NCBI RefSeq assembly: GCF_014378035.1
Contig: NZ_JACMOM010000029.1
Span: 1-64,000 of the forward strand
DNA: 64,000 bases
DNA from: Aeromicrobium sp.
GTDB taxonomy: Bacteria; Actinomycetota; Actinomycetes; Propionibacteriales; Nocardioidaceae
Direction: 5' to 3'
The notes under the pieces are model-generated. The model had not been told where the DNA came from. It ran no database searches and worked only from the letters and a program-made list of their open reading frames with translations. Below are positions 31,795 to 42,130 of this stretch, one piece after another. Position 1 is the stretch's first letter, and every line of letters starts with the position of its first letter. The translations under genes were made by a program, and so were the position numbers.

Positions 31795-32499
31795 CTAGTG
31801 GCGCGCCCCCGCCACCAGCGCGCGGAACAGGCCAGCATCGTCCTGCGTCTCGGGATGCCATTGCACGGCCAGCCAGAACGACCTCGACGGATCCTCGACG
31901 GCCTCGATGGTGCCGTCGAGGGCGTGGGCCGACTCGACGAGACCCGGATGCTCGCGCACCGACTGGTGATGGTGGCAACGCACCGTCGCCTTGTCTCCCA
32001 CCGCGCGAGCCACCGAGGTTCCGGGCACGACGTCAACCTCGACGGTGCCGAAGAGGTCTTTGCCCGGGGAGTGCAGCTCGCTGCCGACGACATCGGGTGT
32101 GTGCTGGTCGAGCGTGCCGCCGGCGTGCACCGCCATGACCTGCATGCCGCGGCAGATGCCGAGCACCGGCAGATCGGCAGCCGCCGCAGCATCGAGCAGG
32201 GCAAACTCCCACGAGTCGCGGTCCTCGCGCCAACCGGTCGTGCTCTCGTGCGCCTCGTCGGCGTAGCGGTGCGGGTCGACGTCCGCTCCGCCAGCGATGA
32301 TGAGCCCGTCGAGGCGCCCGATCACCGATGCCGCGGCGGACAGGTCGCCCGGGGGAAGCAGCCCCGCCACGCCGCCGGCCGCCTGCACAGAACGCGCATA
32401 GACGACATGCAGCAGGTCGGCGGGCTCGTCCCACACCCCCCACCGCGCCCGCTCGCGGTAGGTGGTCACACCAATGACAGGCCGAACAGCTGCACTCAC
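31795..32499 (-). CDS. class I glutamine amidotransferase, gamma-glutamyl-GABA hydrolase-like (PuuD)
   Basis: This 234-residue peptidase C26 has its nucleophile Cys116 in LGICRGMQ and the His-Glu pair in LAVQWHPE. PuuD removes the gamma-glutamyl group after the amine has been oxidised, and the location at the end of a cluster with a PuuA-like ligase supports the same role here. The GTG start overlaps the SDR stop in GTGA, so the two are coupled. It is the last gene of the leftward amine cluster. A general gamma-glutamyl hydrolase role for other amides is possible. Confidence 0.87.
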   Translation of the reverse strand: MSAAVRPVIGVTTYRERARWGVWDEPADLLHVVYARSVQAAGGVAGLLPPGDLSAAASVIGRLDGLIIAGGADVDPHRYADEAHESTTGWREDRDSWEFALLDAAAAADLPVLGICRGMQVMAVHAGGTLDQHTPDVVGSELHSPGKDLFGTVEVDVVPGTSVARAVGDKATVRCHHHQSVREHPGLVESAHALDGTIEAVEDPSRSFWLAVQWHPETQDDAGLFRALVAGARH

Positions 32500-33263
32500 A
32501 GCGGTGTCACGTAGGCCCCGGAGATACCGCCGTCCACGAGGAACGTCGAGGCGGTGATGAAGCTCGACTCGTCCGAGGCGAGGAACAGCACCGCGTTGGC
32601 CATCTCGACCGGTTCGGCGAAGCGGCCGACCGGCACATGGATGAGCCTGCGTGCAGCCTTCTCCGGATCAGTGGCGAAGAGCTCCTGCAGCAGGGGTGTG
32701 TTGACCGGTCCCGGACACAGGGCGTTGACCCGCACGCCCTCGCGGGCGAACTGCACACCGAGCTCACGCGACATCGACAGCACGCCACCCTTGGAGGCCG
32801 AGTACGAGATCTGCGACGTCGCGGCACCCATCACCGCGACGAACGACGCGGTGTTGATGATCGAGCCCTTCTTCTGTTCCAGCATGTAGGGCAGTGCCGC
32901 CTTGCAGCACAGGTAGACGCTGGTCAGGTTGACGTCCTGCACACGCTTCCACGCCTCAAGATCGGTGTTCAGGATCGAGTCGTCCTCCGGCGGGGAGATG
33001 CCGGCGTTGTTGAACGCGACGTCGACCGAGCCGTAGGTGTCCTTCGCCGTCCTGAACAGTGCGTCGACCTCATCTTTGTCGGTGACGTCGACGTGGACGT
33101 AGGTGCCGCCGACCTCCTTCGCGATGTCGGGACCCTTGGAGTCGTCGAGGTCGCCGATGACGATCTTGGCGCCCTCCTCGGCGAACCGTCGCACCGTCGC
33201 GAGACCGATGCCCGAACATCCGCCGGTGATGACGGCGGTCTTGCCTGCGAGGCGTCCAGCCAT
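32496..33263 (-). CDS. short-chain dehydrogenase/reductase
   Basis: This 255-residue classical SDR has the NAD(P)-binding TGGCSGIG at 13-20 and NNAGIS at 85-90. The catalytic Tyr154 and Lys158 are in SYSASKGG. GDLDD after the second strand has an acidic residue that favours NAD+ over NADP+. In this cluster it may oxidise a hydroxyl of the amine or an intermediate, an inference from context only. An AGGA lies four bases before the ATG at 33263. The gap to the ALDH gene (33264-33342) holds no obvious promoter. Confidence 0.9.
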   Translation of the reverse strand: MAGRLAGKTAVITGGCSGIGLATVRRFAEEGAKIVIGDLDDSKGPDIAKEVGGTYVHVDVTDKDEVDALFRTAKDTYGSVDVAFNNAGISPPEDDSILNTDLEAWKRVQDVNLTSVYLCCKAALPYMLEQKKGSIINTASFVAVMGAATSQISYSASKGGVLSMSRELGVQFAREGVRVNALCPGPVNTPLLQELFATDPEKAARRLIHVPVGRFAEPVEMANAVLFLASDESSFITASTFLVDGGISGAYVTPL

Positions 33264-33342: not shown

Positions 33343-34704
33343 CTAGTCGTGGGAGATGAAGATGTTCTTGACGTCGGTGAACGAGTGCGGTGCGTCGGGT
33401 CCGAGCTCACGTCCGAGCCCCGACTGCTTGAACCCTCCGAACGGGGTCCAGTAGCGCACCGAGGCGTGCGAGTTGACGCTGAGATTGCCTGCCTCGACGG
33501 CGCGAGAGACGCGCAACGCACGCCCGACGTCGCGGGTGTAGATCGACCCCGAGAGGCCGAACTCCGTGTCGTTGGCGAGCTGGACGGCCTGGGCCTCGTC
33601 GTCGAAGGGCATCACCGCGACGACCGGCCCGAAGATCTCCTCTCGCCAGACGGGCTGCTGCGGGTCGTCGGCCAGGACGACGGTGGGGGCGAACCAGAAT
33701 CCCGGTCCGTTCGGCGCAGAACCGCTGAACGCGACCTCGGTGCCCTCGACGTAGCCCTGCACCGTCGACCTCTGCGTTGCCGAGATGAGTGGGCCCATCT
33801 CGCTGGAACGGTCGGCGGGGTCGAGCACCCTGACGCCCTTGACGGCGGGCTCCAGCAGCGACACGAACTCGTCGTACGCCGAGCGCTCGACCAGGATGCG
33901 CGACCGCGCGCAGCAATCCTGACCGGCGTTGTCGAACACCGCGCCCGGCGCGGCAGCAGCGGCCTTCGCGATGTCGGCGTCGGCGAAGACGATGTTGGCG
34001 CTCTTGCCACCGAGCTCGAGGGTCACCCGCTTCACCTGCTCGGCGCAGCCGGCCATGATCTTCTTGCCCACGTCGGTCGAGCCGGTGAAGCACACCTTGC
34101 GGACGGCCGGGTGCGTCACGAAGCGCTCGCCCACGATCGAGCCCTTGCCGGGGATGACGGTGAGCACACCCTCGGGCAGCCCGGCTTCAAGCCCCAGCTC
34201 GCCGAGGCGGATCGCAGTCAACGGTGTCAGCTCGGCCGGCTTGAGGACGACGGTGTTGCCCGCCGCGAGCGCGGGTGCGAAACCCCAGCCGGCGATCGGC
34301 ATCGGGAAGTTCCACGGCACGATGATGCCCACGACACCGAGCGGCTCGTGGAACGTCATGTTGATGCCCCCGGCGACCGGGATCTGGTGGCCCGTGAGCC
34401 GTTCGGGCGCTGCAGAGTAGTAGTGCAGCACGTCGCGGACGTTGCCCGCCTCCCACGTCGCATTGCCCCACGTGTGCCCGGAGTTGCGCACCTCCAGCTC
34501 GGCGAGCTCCTCGATGTGCTCGTCGACGACCGCGGCGAAGCGTCGCAGCAGCCGGGCCCGCTCACCGGGCGCGACGTCACGCCATGCCGGGTAGGCGTCG
34601 GCGGCCTTCGCGATGAGGGCATCCGTCATGGCGAGGTCGGACATCTCGACCTCGGTGACGTCTTCTTCGGTCGCCGGGTTGACGACGGTGTAGCTGCTGC
34701 TCAC
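33343..34704 (-). CDS. aldehyde dehydrogenase of the amine-catabolism cluster
   Basis: This 453-residue NAD(P)-dependent ALDH has its catalytic cysteine at residue 264 (NAGQDCCARSR) and its glutamate in LELGGKSANIVF. PWNFPMPIAGWG and GFKQSGLGRELG are standard ALDH blocks. By position it oxidises the aldehyde formed from the gamma-glutamylated amine to the acid, like PuuC. The GTG start has GAGGAG five bases upstream. Directly upstream lies a perfect 21-bp inverted repeat, which may control readthrough from the ligase gene. Confidence 0.9.
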   Translation of the reverse strand: MSSSYTVVNPATEEDVTEVEMSDLAMTDALIAKAADAYPAWRDVAPGERARLLRRFAAVVDEHIEELAELEVRNSGHTWGNATWEAGNVRDVLHYYSAAPERLTGHQIPVAGGINMTFHEPLGVVGIIVPWNFPMPIAGWGFAPALAAGNTVVLKPAELTPLTAIRLGELGLEAGLPEGVLTVIPGKGSIVGERFVTHPAVRKVCFTGSTDVGKKIMAGCAEQVKRVTLELGGKSANIVFADADIAKAAAAAPGAVFDNAGQDCCARSRILVERSAYDEFVSLLEPAVKGVRVLDPADRSSEMGPLISATQRSTVQGYVEGTEVAFSGSAPNGPGFWFAPTVVLADDPQQPVWREEIFGPVVAVMPFDDEAQAVQLANDTEFGLSGSIYTRDVGRALRVSRAVEAGNLSVNSHASVRYWTPFGGFKQSGLGRELGPDAPHSFTDVKNIFISHD

Positions 34705-34816: not shown

Positions 34817-36202
34817 TCACAGGCGCTCGAACCCCCGCCGCCGCTCCCAGTCGGTCACGGCTGCGTCGTAGGCGGCGAGCTCGACGTCGGCCATGTTGGT
34901 GTAGTGGTCGACGACCTCCTCGCCGAAGACCGCCCTCGCCAGCGCCGAGCCGGCCCACGCCTCGCGGGCCTCGCGCAAGGTGGTGGGCACCTTGGCCTTG
35001 TCGGACGTGTAGGCGTTGCCGGTCTGCTCCGGCTCGAGCTCCAGCGCGTTGGCGACGCCGTGCATGCCACCGCCCAGCATCGCGGCGAGGGCGAGGTAGG
35101 GGTTGGCGTCACCGCCGGGCACACGGTTCTCGAGCCGGGCGCTGGGTCCGTGACCCACGAGACGCACGGCGCACGTGCGGTTGTCGAGCCCCCACGCGAT
35201 CGCGGTCGGCGCGAACGAGCCGCCGGCAAATCGCTTGTACGAGTTGATGTTGGGCGCGTAGAGCAGCGTGAAGTCGCGCATCGTCGCCAGGATGCCGGCG
35301 ATGAACTGGTCGTAGACCGGCGTCCGTCCGCCCCGCCCCTCATCGAGCCCGTCGTCCCAGAACACGACCCCACCGTCGGCACCCCTCAACGACAGGTGGA
35401 TGTGGCAGGAGTTGCCCTCACGCTCGTTGTACTTGGCCATGAACGTCAGTGCCTTGCCGTGAGCCGAGGCGATCTCCTTGGCCACGGTCTTGTAGACGGC
35501 GTGGTTGTCTGCGGTCACCACGACGTCGTCGTAGAGGAACCCGATCTCGTGCTGCCCGAAGTTGCACTCGCCCTTGGCGCCCTCGACGTTCATGCCGGCC
35601 GCATACATCGTGTTGCGGATGTCGCGCAGCAGCGGCTCCACCCGGGTCGTGCCGACGATCGAGTAGTCGACGTTGTACTGGTTGGAGGCGGGCAGGTCCT
35701 GATAGTTGGCGCTCCACGCCTCCTCAAAGGTCGTGTCGAACAGGATGAATTCGAGCTCGGTGCCCGCCAAGGCGACGAATCCGGCATCGGCGGCCTTGTC
35801 GACCTGCGCCTTCAGGATCGTGCGCGGCGACTGCGACACCGGCGTGTGGTCGAGCCAGACGAGGTCGCACTGCACCATGGCCGTGGCAGGCAGGTGGGTC
35901 AGCAGCCGGATCGTGTCGAAGTCCATCGCGAACTCCATGTCGCCATAGCCCTTTTCCCACGACGACATCGCGTAGCCGTCGACCGTGTTCATGTCGACGT
36001 CGACGCTCAGGAGGTAGTTGCAGCCCTCGGTGCCCTGCTCGACGACGACGTCGAGGAAGTAGCGCGCATGCAGACGTTTGCCCTGCAGCCGACCCTGCAT
36101 GTCGGTGAACGCGACGATGACGGTGTCGACGTGCCCCTCGGTGATGTGGACCCGGAGCTGCTCGAGGCTCAGCAGCCGTGAATTGCGCGCCTTGTCAGTC
36201 AT
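34817..36202 (-). CDS. glutamine synthetase-like gamma-glutamylamine ligase (PuuA/GlnA-type III)
   Basis: The protein has 461 residues from the ATG at 36202, with AGAGG six bases upstream. An ATG at 36208 and the track start at 36244 are alternatives. GS-fold blocks are present: GECNFGQHEIGF, GNSCHIHLSL (ATP and metal site) and ARLENRVPGGDANPYLALA. I see no adenylylation tyrosine motif. It lies among amine-oxidising genes, so it should use ATP to join glutamate to an amine such as a polyamine or ethanolamine rather than make glutamine. It overlaps the preceding dehydrogenase gene by 8 bases, so the two are translationally coupled. Confidence 0.88.
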   Translation of the reverse strand: MTDKARNSRLLSLEQLRVHITEGHVDTVIVAFTDMQGRLQGKRLHARYFLDVVVEQGTEGCNYLLSVDVDMNTVDGYAMSSWEKGYGDMEFAMDFDTIRLLTHLPATAMVQCDLVWLDHTPVSQSPRTILKAQVDKAADAGFVALAGTELEFILFDTTFEEAWSANYQDLPASNQYNVDYSIVGTTRVEPLLRDIRNTMYAAGMNVEGAKGECNFGQHEIGFLYDDVVVTADNHAVYKTVAKEIASAHGKALTFMAKYNEREGNSCHIHLSLRGADGGVVFWDDGLDEGRGGRTPVYDQFIAGILATMRDFTLLYAPNINSYKRFAGGSFAPTAIAWGLDNRTCAVRLVGHGPSARLENRVPGGDANPYLALAAMLGGGMHGVANALELEPEQTGNAYTSDKAKVPTTLREAREAWAGSALARAVFGEEVVDHYTNMADVELAAYDAAVTDWERRRGFERL

Positions 36203-38681
36203 AGACATCCTCTGCTGGACGGAGCTTCTCTCCCGACGGATCATAGAGCGACCCCAGCGTCACCCGGGCGGAAACGCGGCGGCCACCGACGTCGAGCGTG
36301 TAGTCGCCCGACCGGACGTACGCAGCATCGGCCGTCACACCATCAGGTGCGTTGACCCAGGCAAGGCCGACACCGGCGCCGATCGTGGCACCCCAGGCGC
36401 CTGACGTCGCCTGCCCCACGGCGACCCCGTCGCGCACGAGCAGCTCGCCTCCCCACACCATGACGTCTGCGTCGTCCGAACTGTCCGGGACGATGGCGAA
36501 CGAGACCAAACGACGCGAGGGGCCCGCTGTCTTGGCCTTCTCGACCGCATGGCGCCCGAGGAAGTCGATGGGGGTCGAGAGCTTGCAGGCGAAGCTGAGC
36601 CCCGCCTCGACCGGATCGACCTCTGGCGTCAGCTCGCGACCGAACGCGCGGTAACCCTTCTCGAGCCGCATCGCCTCGATCGCGTAGTAGCCGGCGTCGA
36701 CGATCCCCAGGTCTGCACCGGCCACCTTCAGCGCGTCGTACACCGCGAGGGCGTTGTCATTCAGGACGTAGAGCTCCCAGCCGAGCTCACCGACGTAGGT
36801 GATGCGGGTGGCTCGAACCGTGGCGCCGGCCAGCTCGACCTCATGGCTGGCACCGAACGGGAAGGCATCGTCGCCGAGGTCGGCGTCCGTCACCCGTGAG
36901 AGCAGCTCGCGCGAACGGGGCCCCATGAGGCCGAAGACCGACATCGTCGAGGTGACGTCCCTGATCTGCGCGTCAAGGCCCGCCGGCAGGTGGCGGCGAA
37001 TCCAGTCCTGGTCGCGCTCGGTGGTCGCAGAGCTCGCGACGAGGAAGTACTGGTCCGCTGAGATGCGGGTGACCGTGAGGTCCGACTCGTAGCCGCCTCG
37101 CTCGTTGAGCAGGGCTGTGTAGACGGTCTCGTCGTTCGCCACGGCGACGTCGTTGCTGCAGATCCATTGCAGTGCAGCTTCGGCATCGACACCGTGCACG
37201 ACGTACTTGGAGAAGGACGTCTGGTCGAAGATCGCGACGTCCTTGCGGCACGCCCGCTGCTCGGCGGCCGACCAGGGCATCCAGTTCTGCCGCCCCCATG
37301 CGTACTCGATCGCGGGGTCCTGCCCGGCCGGAGCGAAGAAGTTGGCGCGTTCCCATCCCATCTTGCTGCCGAACCCGGCATTGGCCTGCGCCAGACGGTC
37401 GTGGACCGGCGACTGCCGCAGCGGTCGGGCCGTGTCGTACTCGCGGTTGGGCCACGGCACCGCGTAGTGCAGGCCGAGCACCTCCGTGACCCGCTCGCGG
37501 AGGTAGCTGACGTCATTCTGGAACGGCGCGAACCGGCGGATGTCGACCGCCAGCAGGTCGATCGTCGGCTCCCCCTCGAGAATCCACTCGGCGAGCGCAC
37601 GACCCGCGCCGCCCGCCGACGCGATACCCACGGAGTTGAAGCCTGCGCCGACGAAGAAGCCCCGCACCGCGGGTGCCTCGCCGAGGATGAACTGGTTGTC
37701 GGGCGTGAAGCTCTCGGGCCCGTTGTAGAACTTGCGGATGCCCACCTCACGCAAGGCGGGTATGCGCTCGAGCGCGCTGTCCATCAGGATCGCGAAATGG
37801 TCCCAGTCCTCGCCGAGCAGCTGGAACTCGAACGGGTAGGGGATCTGGTCGGGCGACACCCACGGCTTGGCCTCGGGCTCGAAGCCGCCGACCACGAGCC
37901 CGCCGACCTCCTCCTTGAAGTAGGTGTAGCCGTCGGGGTCACGCAGGATCGGCAGGTCAGGTCGGACGCCCTCGATCTGGTCGGTGACGACATAGAAGTG
38001 CTCGGCGGAGTGCAGCGGGACGGCCACACCGATCTTTGCGGCGAGGTGGTGTGCCCACTGGCCGGCACAGTTGACCACGATGTCGGCCTCGATGTCGCCG
38101 CGGTCGGTGCGCACGCCCGTCACGGCACCTCCCGCCACGAGGATGTCTGTGACCCGCACGTGCTCCGCGACCTTGGCGCCGCGCATCCGGGCGCCGCGGG
38201 CGAGGGCCTGGGTGAGGTCGGTCGGGTTCGCCGTGCCGTCGCCGGGCAGCCAGATGCCGCCGACGAGGTCGTCGATCTCCAACAGCGGGTAGTGGTCGCG
38301 GGCTTGCTCAGGAGTCAGCAGCTGACACTCGAGGTCGTACGCCTGCGCGGTGGCGGCGGTGCGTCGAAGCTGCTCCATGCGGTCGGCGGTGCGAGCCACC
38401 GTGACACCTCCGCACCGCTTGAAGCCCGAGCTCAGGCCGACCTCGTCCTCGAGCTGCTCGTACAGGGAGGCGCTGTACTGCACCAGCGTCGTGCCACTCT
38501 GCGTGGCGCGGAGCTGACCGACCAGACCGGCCGCGTGCCATGTCGTGCCGCACGAGAGCTCACCCTGCTCGAGCAGGACGACGTCGGCCTCACCGCCACG
38601 GGTCAGGTGATAGGCAACGCTCGTGCCGACGACACCGCCGCCGATGATGACGATGCGCGCCCGTGCGGGAAGCGTCGTCAT
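36195..38681 (-). CDS. FAD-dependent dimethylglycine/sarcosine dehydrogenase-like protein fused to GcvT domain
   Basis: The protein has 828 residues from an ATG at 38681. The 993-codon track ORF runs too far. Residues 1-370 are a DAO-type oxidoreductase with IIGGGVVGTSVAYHL and the covalent-flavin histidine H49 in TTWHAAGL. Residues about 430-828 are a GcvT/aminomethyltransferase domain (THF-binding) with YVGELGWELY and a C-terminal barrel. The pair oxidatively removes an N-methyl group and passes the one-carbon unit to tetrahydrofolate. The substrate could be dimethylglycine, sarcosine or another methylated amine. It overlaps the choline-kinase-like gene in ATGA. Confidence 0.9.
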   Translation of the reverse strand: MTTLPARARIVIIGGGVVGTSVAYHLTRGGEADVVLLEQGELSCGTTWHAAGLVGQLRATQSGTTLVQYSASLYEQLEDEVGLSSGFKRCGGVTVARTADRMEQLRRTAATAQAYDLECQLLTPEQARDHYPLLEIDDLVGGIWLPGDGTANPTDLTQALARGARMRGAKVAEHVRVTDILVAGGAVTGVRTDRGDIEADIVVNCAGQWAHHLAAKIGVAVPLHSAEHFYVVTDQIEGVRPDLPILRDPDGYTYFKEEVGGLVVGGFEPEAKPWVSPDQIPYPFEFQLLGEDWDHFAILMDSALERIPALREVGIRKFYNGPESFTPDNQFILGEAPAVRGFFVGAGFNSVGIASAGGAGRALAEWILEGEPTIDLLAVDIRRFAPFQNDVSYLRERVTEVLGLHYAVPWPNREYDTARPLRQSPVHDRLAQANAGFGSKMGWERANFFAPAGQDPAIEYAWGRQNWMPWSAAEQRACRKDVAIFDQTSFSKYVVHGVDAEAALQWICSNDVAVANDETVYTALLNERGGYESDLTVTRISADQYFLVASSATTERDQDWIRRHLPAGLDAQIRDVTSTMSVFGLMGPRSRELLSRVTDADLGDDAFPFGASHEVELAGATVRATRITYVGELGWELYVLNDNALAVYDALKVAGADLGIVDAGYYAIEAMRLEKGYRAFGRELTPEVDPVEAGLSFACKLSTPIDFLGRHAVEKAKTAGPSRRLVSFAIVPDSSDDADVMVWGGELLVRDGVAVGQATSGAWGATIGAGVGLAWVNAPDGVTADAAYVRSGDYTLDVGGRRVSARVTLGSLYDPSGEKLRPAEDVYD

Positions 38682-39595
38682 CGCCCGCCACCCGTCGTGC
38701 CCGCCGCCGTCGACAACCAGGTATCGAAGTGTGGCGACCGGAAGTCGGCGACAGCCATGTCGAAGCGTTCCTGGCCCCACCCCCGGAAGTCGAAGTCGTC
38801 GTCGAGGGTGGCGGCCTGGATGAAGCCCCACAGCGACCAGCCGTAACGCGACGTCACCGCGCCGAGCCTCGCCCGCGCGAGCAGGACCGGCGACTCGTGA
38901 CCCACGTACGACGTCACGAGCTCGGCAAGGTGGTCGTCGTCGAGGCCGCACTCGGTCCAGATGTTGCCGAGCTCGAAGAACGGGTCGTTGTTGCCCGAAT
39001 ACTCGTAGTCGATCAACCAGAGCTTGTCGCCGTCGTCGACGAAGTTGCCGGCGAGCAGGTCGTTGTTGCACGGCACGGTCGGCACGGGGCTGACGGCGAG
39101 CGCCGCCTCGATACGGGCGAAGTCGGCGCCGAACATCCCGAAGTCGGGTGGGAAGGGGAATCCTCGCTCGACGCACGTCCGGAGGTAGAAGCCCTGCCGC
39201 GCGAACATGTCGAAGTCATTGGCGAAGCGGGGTCCGGAATGGAGGGCGCGACAAGCTTCGGCAACACGCGGCAGAGTGCCGGGCTCGCGCAGATCGGCGT
39301 CGACGAACGTGCGACCGTCGATGTAGCCGATGATGAGCACGCCCAGCTCGGGACGGAACTCCACGAACGGCGCACCGACACCGGCCAGTTCGGCGGCCCT
39401 GGTGTTGAACGACTCCGCCTCACGGTCGATGCCCAGCAGCCTCGTGTCGCTGCGGTTGCACCTCACGACGAAGACTCCGTCAGGGGTGGTCACCTTGACG
39501 TTGCGGTTGGTGAGACCACCGGGGAGCTCCTCGACCGAACGCGGGCGACCGGCGAGGCTGGGGATCCGGTTTAGCACCGCGTCGACGTCAGCCAT
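38678..39595 (-). CDS. choline/ethanolamine kinase-like phosphotransferase (APH fold)
   Basis: This 305-residue protein has the kinase Brenner-type loop PCNNDLLAGNF, the metal-binding LIDYEYSGNNDPFFELGN and an N-terminal GGLTNRNVKV nucleotide loop. The LIDYEYSG-N-(D/P) pattern fits LicA/choline kinase more than aminoglycoside kinases. It may phosphorylate an amino alcohol in this cluster. It is preceded by a probable leaderless promoter (TAGGCT, six bases before the ATG at 39595) and by a GntR operator, so it should be the first gene of the regulated operon that runs to the PuuD-like gene. Confidence 0.85.
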   Translation of the reverse strand: MADVDAVLNRIPSLAGRPRSVEELPGGLTNRNVKVTTPDGVFVVRCNRSDTRLLGIDREAESFNTRAAELAGVGAPFVEFRPELGVLIIGYIDGRTFVDADLREPGTLPRVAEACRALHSGPRFANDFDMFARQGFYLRTCVERGFPFPPDFGMFGADFARIEAALAVSPVPTVPCNNDLLAGNFVDDGDKLWLIDYEYSGNNDPFFELGNIWTECGLDDDHLAELVTSYVGHESPVLLARARLGAVTSRYGWSLWGFIQAATLDDDFDFRGWGQERFDMAVADFRSPHFDTWLSTAAGTTGGGR

Positions 39596-39601
39596 GGGAG
39601 G

Positions 39602-39607
39602 AGCCTA
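39602..39607 (-). promoter_or_regulatory. leaderless promoter -10 of the amine-catabolism operon
   Basis: On the minus strand TAGGCT is followed by six bases and the ATG of the kinase-like gene. No ribosome binding site is needed in this geometry. The operator lies 19 bases upstream, over the -35 position. Confidence 0.55.
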
Positions 39608-39623
39608 GCCGCGTCAACGACTT

Positions 39624-39636
39624 AAGGTCTAGACTC
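39624..39636 (-). promoter_or_regulatory. predicted GntR operator 1 (kinase-like gene promoter)
   Basis: On the minus strand the site reads AGTCTAGACCTT, with a perfect GTCTAGAC core. HutC/DasR-type GntR proteins bind GTCTAGAC-like palindromes, and the encoded regulator is of that type. Its right half matches the ideal AAGGTCTAGACCTT palindrome exactly. A second site is upstream of the permease. Confidence 0.65.
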
Positions 39637-39659
39637 TACCGCGCGAAACAGTCTGTGCC

Positions 39660-40481
39660 TCAGTCCGCGGGCTCGATCGAGAGCCCCGTCGCCATGTGCG
39701 GGTCGAGCCCGGTCTTCAGGCTGATGCGCGTGCGGTCGGAGCGGTAGCGATCGTGGGCGAACTCGACCGGCACCCCCGACACGGTCGATGCCTTCCGCGT
39801 CACGAGCATGACTGCCGCGCCGGCTTCGATGCCGAGCAGCTCGGCGTGGTCTGCCGAGCAGATCTCGGGCTCGAGCCACTCCTGCGCATGGTGAGGGGCC
39901 AGGTCGTAGTGCTGTCGCATCAGGCCGTAGAGCGAACCCGTGAGCCGCCGATCGAGCAGGCCTGGAAACAGGTGAGCCGGCAGGTAGGTCTCCTCCAGCG
40001 CCAGTGGCTGACGGCGAGCCGACCGCACGCGTACGACCTCGAACACGTCTTTTCTGCTGCCGAGCTCGAGCGCCTCGGTGATGTCGGCCGACGCCTCGAC
40101 AAGTCCGGCGCGGATGATGCGCGCGCCGGCGCGGACGTTGGCCCGGCGCATCTGCTCGGTGAAGCCAGGCAGCCCCGACAGGTCGACCGCGACCTTGGGC
40201 TCACGGATGAAGTTGCCACCTGACCGTCCGCGCTTGCGCTCGATCCACCCCTGCGCCTCGAGGGAGCCCAGAGCCTGCCGCAGGGTCATGCGGCTCACAC
40301 CGATCGAGGCGGCCAGCTCTTCCTCGGGTGGCAGCTTGTCGTCGGTGTGGATCTTGCCGACGCCGATGCGATCAAGGAGCCAGGCGCTGATCCGGGCGTG
40401 CGACGGGTCGTCGGTCGACGACGAGAGGTCGGGCTTGTCGCCCAACGCCTCGCCGTCGACCTCGAGATTTCTCACGCGCAT
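39660..40481 (-). CDS. GntR/HutC-type transcriptional regulator
   Basis: The protein has 273 residues from an ATG at 40481. The track also allows a TTG at 40493, which has its Shine-Dalgarno-like GAGG too close. The N-terminal winged helix-turn-helix reads KLPPEEELAASIGVSRMTLRQALGSLEAQGWIERKRGRSG. The C-terminal UTRA-type ligand domain follows. It lies between the permease and the operon that starts with the kinase-like gene. The two operators and this layout predict a local repressor released by an amine or its intermediate. Confidence 0.92.
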   Translation of the reverse strand: MRVRNLEVDGEALGDKPDLSSSTDDPSHARISAWLLDRIGVGKIHTDDKLPPEEELAASIGVSRMTLRQALGSLEAQGWIERKRGRSGGNFIREPKVAVDLSGLPGFTEQMRRANVRAGARIIRAGLVEASADITEALELGSRKDVFEVVRVRSARRQPLALEETYLPAHLFPGLLDRRLTGSLYGLMRQHYDLAPHHAQEWLEPEICSADHAELLGIEAGAAVMLVTRKASTVSGVPVEFAHDRYRSDRTRISLKTGLDPHMATGLSIEPAD

Positions 40482-40503
40482 GACCGTATCCAACGCCTCA
40501 CCG

Positions 40504-42063
40504 TTAGTCGTCGAACGCCTCCATGACGGCCTTGTCGATCGTGTGCTTCGGCCCCGTGAACCAGTTGCGGGCCGACGCGAACCACCAGATCGTCAGGACG
40601 AGGAGCGTCCCGCCGGTGAGGATCGGTGCATAGTTGACGAACTTCCACGAGAAGTCCGCGTTGCCCGGAACGGCTGCCGGCGTGAACGGAAGGATGAAGT
40701 AGATCGAGATGATGATGATCTCGGCGCAGGCCACCAGGTTCATCCACTTGTACTTCTTGCCGTTGTTCCACGTGCCGGGCACGAAGGCATCGCCCATCCT
40801 CCAACGCAGGAAGATCGGGATGAGGAAGGCCAGGTAGAGGCCGATGACCGCGACCGAGACGACCGCGTAGAAGGCGATCGGCACGGGAGCCCCACCGATG
40901 TCGACCTGGATCAGCGCCGGCAGGGTGATGATCACGCCGATGATGGCCACCAGGACGACCGCGTTCGCCGGAACCTTGGACGCCGTCACCTTGCACCACA
41001 GGTGCGAGGCGGGGATGGCGCCGTCGCGACTGAAGGCGAAGGTCATGCGTGAGGCGCTGGTGAGGCAGGCGACCAGGCAGAAGAACTGTCCGGCCACAGA
41101 GATGGCGAGCACGATGACGTGCCAGCCCTGTCCGAGCGCCTGCCCGAAGATCAGGTCCACGCCGCCTCCGCCCTTCGTGACCGCGTCCTTGTCCTGGACC
41201 GCGAACAGGAAGGCGAGCAGCAACACCCAGCCGCCGATGGCCGAGTAGGCGATCGAGCGCCAGATTCCCTTCGCCGCAGCCTCTGACGCTCCGTGGGTCT
41301 CCTCGGAGAGATGCGCGGACGCATCGAACCCCGTGATCGTGTACTGCGTCAGCAGGAACCCGAGCGGGAGGACGAGGAACCAGTAGGTGCCGTTGTTCAT
41401 GGCACCCTCGGCGTAGCCGGAGTTGTTGACCTTGCCGCCGAACACCTCACTGATCGCCATGTGCGTCTTCGGGACGAAGGCCAGGATCAGCACGATGACC
41501 GCGACGCCACCGACGTGCCACCACACCGAGATGTTGTTGATCACGGCAAGGAGGTGTCCGCTGAAGATGTTCAGGCCCGCCGCCACGATCAGAATGATCA
41601 CGAAGAGCACGAAGACCGTCCCGAGCCCGGAGCCGTCCGCCCACGAGGCGCTCACGGTGTCGAGCGTCAGGTCGAGGAAGGTCGCGCAGCCGTAGGCCAC
41701 CGACGCCGTCACCGCGAGCAGGCCGATCAGGTTGAGCCAACCGGTGAAGAAACCTGCCGCCGGGCCGCCCATCTTGGAGGCCCACCAGTAGATGCCACCG
41801 GAGGTTGGATATGCCGAGACGAGCTCGGCCATCGTGAAGCCGATGATCAGGATGAAGATCGAGATGATCGGCCAACCCCAGGAGATCGCGACCGGCCCAC
41901 CGTTGTTCCACGCCTGACCGAAGGTCGTGAAGCATCCCGCCAGGATCGAGATGATCGAGAACGAGATGGCGAAGTTCGAGAAGCTCGACCACGATCGGTT
42001 GAGCTCCTGCTTGTAGCCGAGCGACGCAAGGTGCTGCTCGTCAGCGCTGAGTTTTTCTGTCAT
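40504..42063 (-). CDS. APC family amino acid/amine permease
   Basis: The protein has 519 residues from an ATG at 42063, four codons inside the track start. About 12 helices are present, with the first APC region FSNFAISFSIISILAGCFTTFGQAWNNGGPVAISWGWP and TAYPTSGGIYWWA-like VSAYPTSGGIYWWASKMGGP. It is the upstream gene of the leftward cluster, 22 bases before the GntR gene, and its promoter carries GntR operator 2. It should bring in the amine or amino acid degraded by the following genes. The substrate is not identified. Confidence 0.92.
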   Translation of the reverse strand: MTEKLSADEQHLASLGYKQELNRSWSSFSNFAISFSIISILAGCFTTFGQAWNNGGPVAISWGWPIISIFILIIGFTMAELVSAYPTSGGIYWWASKMGGPAAGFFTGWLNLIGLLAVTASVAYGCATFLDLTLDTVSASWADGSGLGTVFVLFVIILIVAAGLNIFSGHLLAVINNISVWWHVGGVAVIVLILAFVPKTHMAISEVFGGKVNNSGYAEGAMNNGTYWFLVLPLGFLLTQYTITGFDASAHLSEETHGASEAAAKGIWRSIAYSAIGGWVLLLAFLFAVQDKDAVTKGGGGVDLIFGQALGQGWHVIVLAISVAGQFFCLVACLTSASRMTFAFSRDGAIPASHLWCKVTASKVPANAVVLVAIIGVIITLPALIQVDIGGAPVPIAFYAVVSVAVIGLYLAFLIPIFLRWRMGDAFVPGTWNNGKKYKWMNLVACAEIIIISIYFILPFTPAAVPGNADFSWKFVNYAPILTGGTLLVLTIWWFASARNWFTGPKHTIDKAVMEAFDD

Positions 42064-42119
42064 GAAGTGACCCAACTCTCAGAAGAAGTTGGTGCATGCT
42101 AGCGCGCCACGCCGCATGC

Positions 42120-42130
42120 ATCTAGACCTT
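42120..42130 (-). promoter_or_regulatory. predicted GntR operator 2 (permease promoter)
   Basis: On the minus strand the site reads AAGGTCTAGAT, whose left half is exact for AAGGTCTAGACCTT. A TAGCAT -10 lies 19 bases downstream of the TCTAGA core, against 20 at operator 1, so both sites overlap the -35. The site is 57 bases from the permease ATG. Confidence 0.6.

Follow-up and report, generated by a model that had tools for sequence, protein, structure and literature searches.

A predicted GntR/HutC-subfamily regulator and its operator pair at an amine gene cluster of Aeromicrobium

What controls an amine gene cluster whose two promoters carry the same short motif in opposite orientations, with a GntR-type regulator gene between them? 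We addressed this question computationally in a 64,000-nucleotide stretch of Aeromicrobium sp. DNA (contig NZ_JACMOM010000029.1, positions 1 to 64,000; hereafter the window). The genes of the cluster are all encoded on the minus strand:

31795-32499, minus: class-I glutamine amidotransferase / peptidase C26, PuuD-like (PF07722)
32496-33263, minus: short-chain dehydrogenase, SDR (PF13561; above the cut-off of NF004713)
33343-34704, minus: aldehyde dehydrogenase (PF00171)
34817-36202, minus: glutamine-synthetase (GS)-like ligase, GlnA4-type by gene context (PF00120)
36195-38717, minus: FAD oxidoreductase with GCV_T folate domains, dimethylglycine-dehydrogenase-like (PDB 5l46, 2.3e-146)
38678-39595, minus: choline/ethanolamine-kinase-family phosphotransferase (PF01633, 2.2e-17; PDB 3dxq, 2.3e-35)
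39660-40493, minus: gntR, GntR/HutC-subfamily regulator with an N-terminal GntR winged helix-turn-helix (HTH; PF00392, 1.4e-16) and a C-terminal UTRA domain (PF07702, 6.1e-36)
40504-42063, minus: amino acid/amine permease, AA_permease_2 (PF13520, 2.1e-53)

The 10-mer AAGGTCTAGA occurs exactly at 39624-39633 on the plus strand and at 42121-42130 on the minus strand of the window. A first-pass annotation of this DNA had described two mutually inverted sites at 39625-39635 and 42120-42130; the pair and its inversion stand, and the positions were off by one base. Its further statements, that each site holds one exact half of the palindrome AAGGTCTAGACCTT (AAGGTCTAGACTCT at the kinase, AAGGTCTAGATGCA at the permease) and that gntR lies between the two promoters, agree with our data. 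O1 precedes the permease-gntR pair and O2 precedes the kinase gene. The strong half of O2, which reads CCTT on the coding strand, points toward the -10 element of the kinase promoter, while that of O1 is on the upstream side and is its single good half, GGTCTAGAT. The GT-N4-AC spacing of palindromic HutC-subfamily sites (PMC4494728) is present as GTCTAGAC at the kinase site and in most relatives, and the permease site retains one half of this form, GTCTAGAT. The elements of the two promoters are as follows:

39593-39595, minus: kinase ATG, 6 bases after the -10; a distance of 6-7 bases recurs in many relatives
39602-39607, minus: -10 element of the kinase promoter, TAGGCT (TANNNT 19-20 bases past TCTAGA in 35/36 kinase sites)
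39624-39637, minus: predicted operator O2, kinase promoter (AAGGTCTAGACTCT on the plus strand; exact match, kept in Nocardioidaceae and Mycobacteriaceae relatives)
39626-39631, minus: probable -35 of the kinase promoter, TAGACC (4/6 to TTGACA), within O2, with an 18-base spacer of conserved length
42096-42101, minus: -10 element of the permease promoter, TAGCAT (TANNNT 19-20 bases past TCTAGA in 14/14 permease sites)
42117-42130, minus: predicted operator O1, permease-gntR promoter (AAGGTCTAGATGCA; exact match, 14 permease sites aligned)
42119-42124, minus: probable -35 of the permease promoter, TAGATG, within O1, with a 17-base spacer

Frequent occurrence of the motif elsewhere in the genome would speak against a local operator. 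The assembly (4.23 Mb, 90.5% complete, 400 contigs) contains only two exact copies of AAGGTCTAGA, both at this locus, compared with 13 occurrences of its reversed control pattern, which is an inexact null because CTAG-containing words are scarce in this genome (10 occurrences of RGTCTAGAY vs 92 of its reversed control). When one mismatch was allowed, the window held six matches against 0.69 expected, a number reached in none of 100 shuffles. No amine genes were found beside the other RGTCTAGAY sites of the genome. We regard conservation in relatives as the main, and strong, evidence against a chance origin of the pair.

This comparison spanned more than 150 related genomes. Homologs of the regulator (42-76% identity) were found at 34 loci from Aeromicrobium, Nocardioides, other Nocardioidaceae, Mycobacterium/Mycolicibacterium, and a few others, and the site is present at all 34. 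Thirty loci have the exact core (GGTCTAGA or GTCTAGAC), nearly always just 5' of a kinase or permease homolog, and at two loci (L009 and L011) the site precedes such a homolog although the regulator is encoded at another place in the locus. At the remaining four (L010, L012, L024, and L030), the sites are 10-11/12 matches and lie 5' of the kinase gene or of a second FAD oxidoreductase gene (AAAAGACTAGAC). Aligned, the sites read AAAGG-TCTAGA-C with little preference outside; the TCTAGA core partly served to select them, so its 100% conservation is not evidence in itself.

The presence of the site depends on the regulator gene. In a genus sample of 37 genomes, a site pair about 2.5 kb apart surrounds the regulator in all seven genomes with a gntR ortholog, whereas the 30 genomes without it have no pair and only five stray single sites (7/7 vs 0/30; Fisher 1e-7, a significance inflated by the relatedness of the genomes). 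For the kinase operon, we scored the best upstream 12-mer at 30 family loci, 14 from genomes with the regulator and 16 from genomes without. An 11-12/12 match was found in 12 of the 14, and the 16 never exceeded 9/12, no better than shuffles (12/14 vs 0/16; Fisher 1e-6, with genome kinship overstating independence). The site therefore goes with the regulator and not with the kinase operon. Of the two exceptions among the 14, G005 has the site ahead of a permease-kinase operon instead (L107). In G041, the regulator gene lies next to the kinase gene, and the region directly 5' of the kinase gave no site.

Third exact sites in the genus relatives G110, G113, G116, and G137 were considered as further targets and rejected, and we claim no extra regulon member. 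In G116, the third site sits where a transposase-like gene ends, within an inverted repeat flanking that gene, and that of G137 is upstream of a valyl-tRNA-synthetase-like gene in surroundings resembling a sequence in the gntR-less G069. Those of G110 and G113 have a short sequence in common and no pathway gene.

It could be argued that the sites belong to the DasR-like regulator of this genome, which would place the amine cluster in a global regulon under GlcNAc control. In S. coelicolor, DasR recognizes sites much like these, e.g., taaggtctagacctgc at SCO6344-45 (PMC4398421), and one of the six UTRA proteins of our genome is DasR-like (41% identical, contig C136). However, both sites and the local gntR are present in G104 and G137, where the search at E<=1e-30 found no DasR-like gene, indicating that DasR is not needed; genomes without the local gntR lack the site pair, and the palindromic GGTCTAGACC was not found in the genome. 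While the core is of the GGTCTAGACC type and some DasR sites differ little from those in the window, DasR has a consensus of A(G/C)TGGTCTAGACCA(G/C)T and about 200 predicted sites genome-wide (PMC4398421), compared with two exact copies here, both local. In place of the outer T and G/C of the dre site TGGTCTAGACCA, the aligned sites have A at -6 (37/38) and at -7 (36/38). The first-pass annotation had likened the core to HutC/DasR-type sites; this holds for the HutC spacing (GT-N4-AC with a 6-base spacer) but not for the outer bases or the base-reading residues, which differ from DasR and NagR. Although DasR may cross-bind at these sites, we consider its control of the cluster very unlikely. 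A literature search on the motif letters returned the DasR paper as the only relevant result.

The position of the sites within the promoters bears on the direction of control. TANNNT starts 19 or 20 bases 3' of TCTAGA in 49 of 50 sites (36 kinase and 14 permease), and the distances in the window are 19 (permease) and 20 (kinase), exactly as first annotated. At this spacing the operator covers the -35, as originally proposed, and contains it; at the permease promoters, the -35 hexamer inside the operator is TAGATG or TAGACG. Orientation is also fixed: the AAAGG half lies on the upstream side in nearly all permease promoters and on the downstream side in those of the kinase. Judged from this geometry, regulator binding and polymerase entry should be mutually exclusive at the operators. 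The short distance between the -10 and the ATG implies that the kinase transcript is probably leaderless, which lends independent support to the kinase -10.

A start codon 6-7 bases past the -10 (39593-39607 in the window) is common to many Nocardioidaceae and mycobacterial relatives. Directly 3' of the permease -10, at 42072-42092, lies an inverted repeat, CCAACTT-loop-AGTTGG, that is kept in genus relatives; no ribosome-binding site was seen in the usual place in this leader, and the folding energy of the hairpin is not significant (z -1.2).

An activator or dual-role regulator, with the site as an upstream activating element, would fit the poor -35 hexamers (3-4 of 6 matches) and the dual roles of a few GntR proteins. 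This is highly unlikely, as the distance to the -10 is constant at 19-20 bases in 49/50 cases and places the site over the -35, where an occluding operator would lie. Scarcely credible is the suggestion that TCTAGA is conserved as an unusual -35 of the promoter itself with no cognate repressor: TAGACC does lie within the site at -35 spacing, but the same kinase operon occurs without the site in 16 gntR-less genomes, and the AAAGG beyond the -35 is kept in either orientation of the site. Finally, ten-mers do recur by chance, but the probability that a rare one simply occurs twice here is negligible given the conservation in relatives, the shuffles, the genome count, and the promoter spacing.

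O1 and O2 are thus very probably operators of an autoregulated GntR/HutC-subfamily repressor encoded between them, which would control the permease-gntR and kinase-demethylase operons. The computed support comes from the conservation of the sites, their dependence on the regulator gene, the spacing within the promoters, and the retention of DNA-contact and ligand residues. The comparative data bear out the single local repressor of the first-pass annotation, in that the sites track gntR, keep a fixed spacing to the -10, and persist in G104 and G137. We propose that a regulator dimer binds the imperfect palindrome AAAGG-TCTAGA-C over the -35 hexamer and would thereby keep RNA polymerase off both promoters, acting by repression rather than activation. 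One of these, P1, would transcribe permease and gntR; gntR starts 10 bases after the permease gene and is therefore probably autoregulated. The other, P2, would transcribe the kinase, the FAD demethylase, and then the GS-like ligase, aldehyde dehydrogenase, SDR, and amidotransferase, an extent that is presumptive because the gaps of 112 bases before the aldehyde dehydrogenase and 79 before the SDR could hold further promoters. A small amine-pathway ligand, perhaps the phospho-amine product of the kinase or an N-methylated ethanolamine, would bind the UTRA domain and release the regulator. A single local switch thus probably governs the cluster, and the control itself appears, on good support, to be ordinary local repression of a kind fairly common in bacteria.

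Both domains expected of this subfamily, the N-terminal winged HTH and the C-terminal UTRA domain, are present in the regulator. Against the HutC histidine utilisation repressor model TIGR02018, it scored 97.7 bits, below the curated cut-off of 220. Among solved structures, NagR/YvoA (1.7e-34) and DasR come closest to the regulator. In NagR of Bacillus subtilis, Arg38 reads G-5, Arg48 reads G-4, and Gly69 contacts the minor groove, and natural sites are as a rule asymmetric, with GG in one half only and a 6-base spacer (PMC4333415). The system in the window resembles NagR and its dre sites (PMC4333415) in the GntR HTH and UTRA domains, the GG-TCTAGA-C core, the spacer, and the one-sided GG. 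The DNA-contact residues Ser47, Arg48, and Gly69 (NagR numbering) are kept in 35/35 regulators, as are Met49 and Thr50. In contrast, the outer bases are AAA and not GT, the Arg38 that contacts G-5 in NagR (PMC4333415) is absent in 35/35 (replaced by Glu, Val, Ala, Ser, Gln, Ile, or Met), the wing is two residues longer (RGRxGG), and the cluster has no amino-sugar genes. The sequences suggest that this regulator is related to NagR and DasR yet distinct in its outer bases, Arg38 loss, and wing insertion.

The NagR ligand residues Thr90, Arg133, Arg135, Glu145, Ser165, and Tyr167 are also kept in 35/35, all but Glu145 being phosphate contacts, and the position of NagR Ser226 is Asp in 35/35. No Asp was seen there in those UTRA paralogs of the genome that align at this position. 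The kept pocket residues and the Asp might suit a phosphorylated amine ligand, e.g., the kinase product; this is a weak pointer, because UTRA pockets also bind carboxylates. It is possible, though doubtful, that a separate HutC-subfamily branch reads AAAGG without Arg38 via the enlarged wing (RGRxGG) and is induced by a phosphorylated amine from the operon's own kinase. If true, that branch would carry the phospho-ligand logic of NagR/DasR beyond amino sugars and into the amine catabolism of Nocardioidaceae and mycobacteria. The predicted pair is of the GntR/HutC regulator-operator kind and differs from DasR/NagR in its outer bases and at Arg38. The NagR contact between Arg38 and G has been lost here in nature although the G persists, which makes the pair informative about the DNA-recognition code of GntR proteins.

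The predicted pair would serve an amine cluster that is widespread among actinobacteria, and it links the kinase and demethylase with that cluster. The ethanolamine cluster around GlnA4 in Streptomyces comprises an SDR, aldehyde dehydrogenase, GS-like ligase, permease, and glutamine amidotransferase (PMC6529630), and all five gene types are present in the window. Unlike the S. coelicolor GlnA4/EpuRI cluster (PMC6529630), the window adds the kinase, the dimethylglycine-dehydrogenase-like enzyme, and the UTRA regulator; the FCD-type GntR of genus relatives is missing from it. The GS-like protein fell below the cut-off for all NCBIfam subtypes listed. A literature search on the gene combination of the cluster found no description. 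We would guess that N-methylated ethanolamines or related amines enter the gamma-glutamyl route by way of the kinase and the FAD enzyme.

In genus relatives, another GntR-family regulator is encoded between the genes of the FAD enzyme and the GS-like protein, and in L093 it is of the FCD type (PF07729; L093:11224-11949). In the window, these two genes overlap directly (36195-36202) with no second GntR between, and the closest homolog of that regulator elsewhere in the genome shows just 32% identity. The variant AAAAGACTAGAC lies 5' of a second FAD/GCV_T oxidoreductase at four loci (L010:7020, L012:7572, L024:8988, and L030:5118), perhaps as a further target of the same regulator family. Two genus relatives have CAAGCAAAGGTCTAGATGATT in common (L096:4995-5010 and L097:4995-5010), near TetR-family genes and away from the amine cluster.
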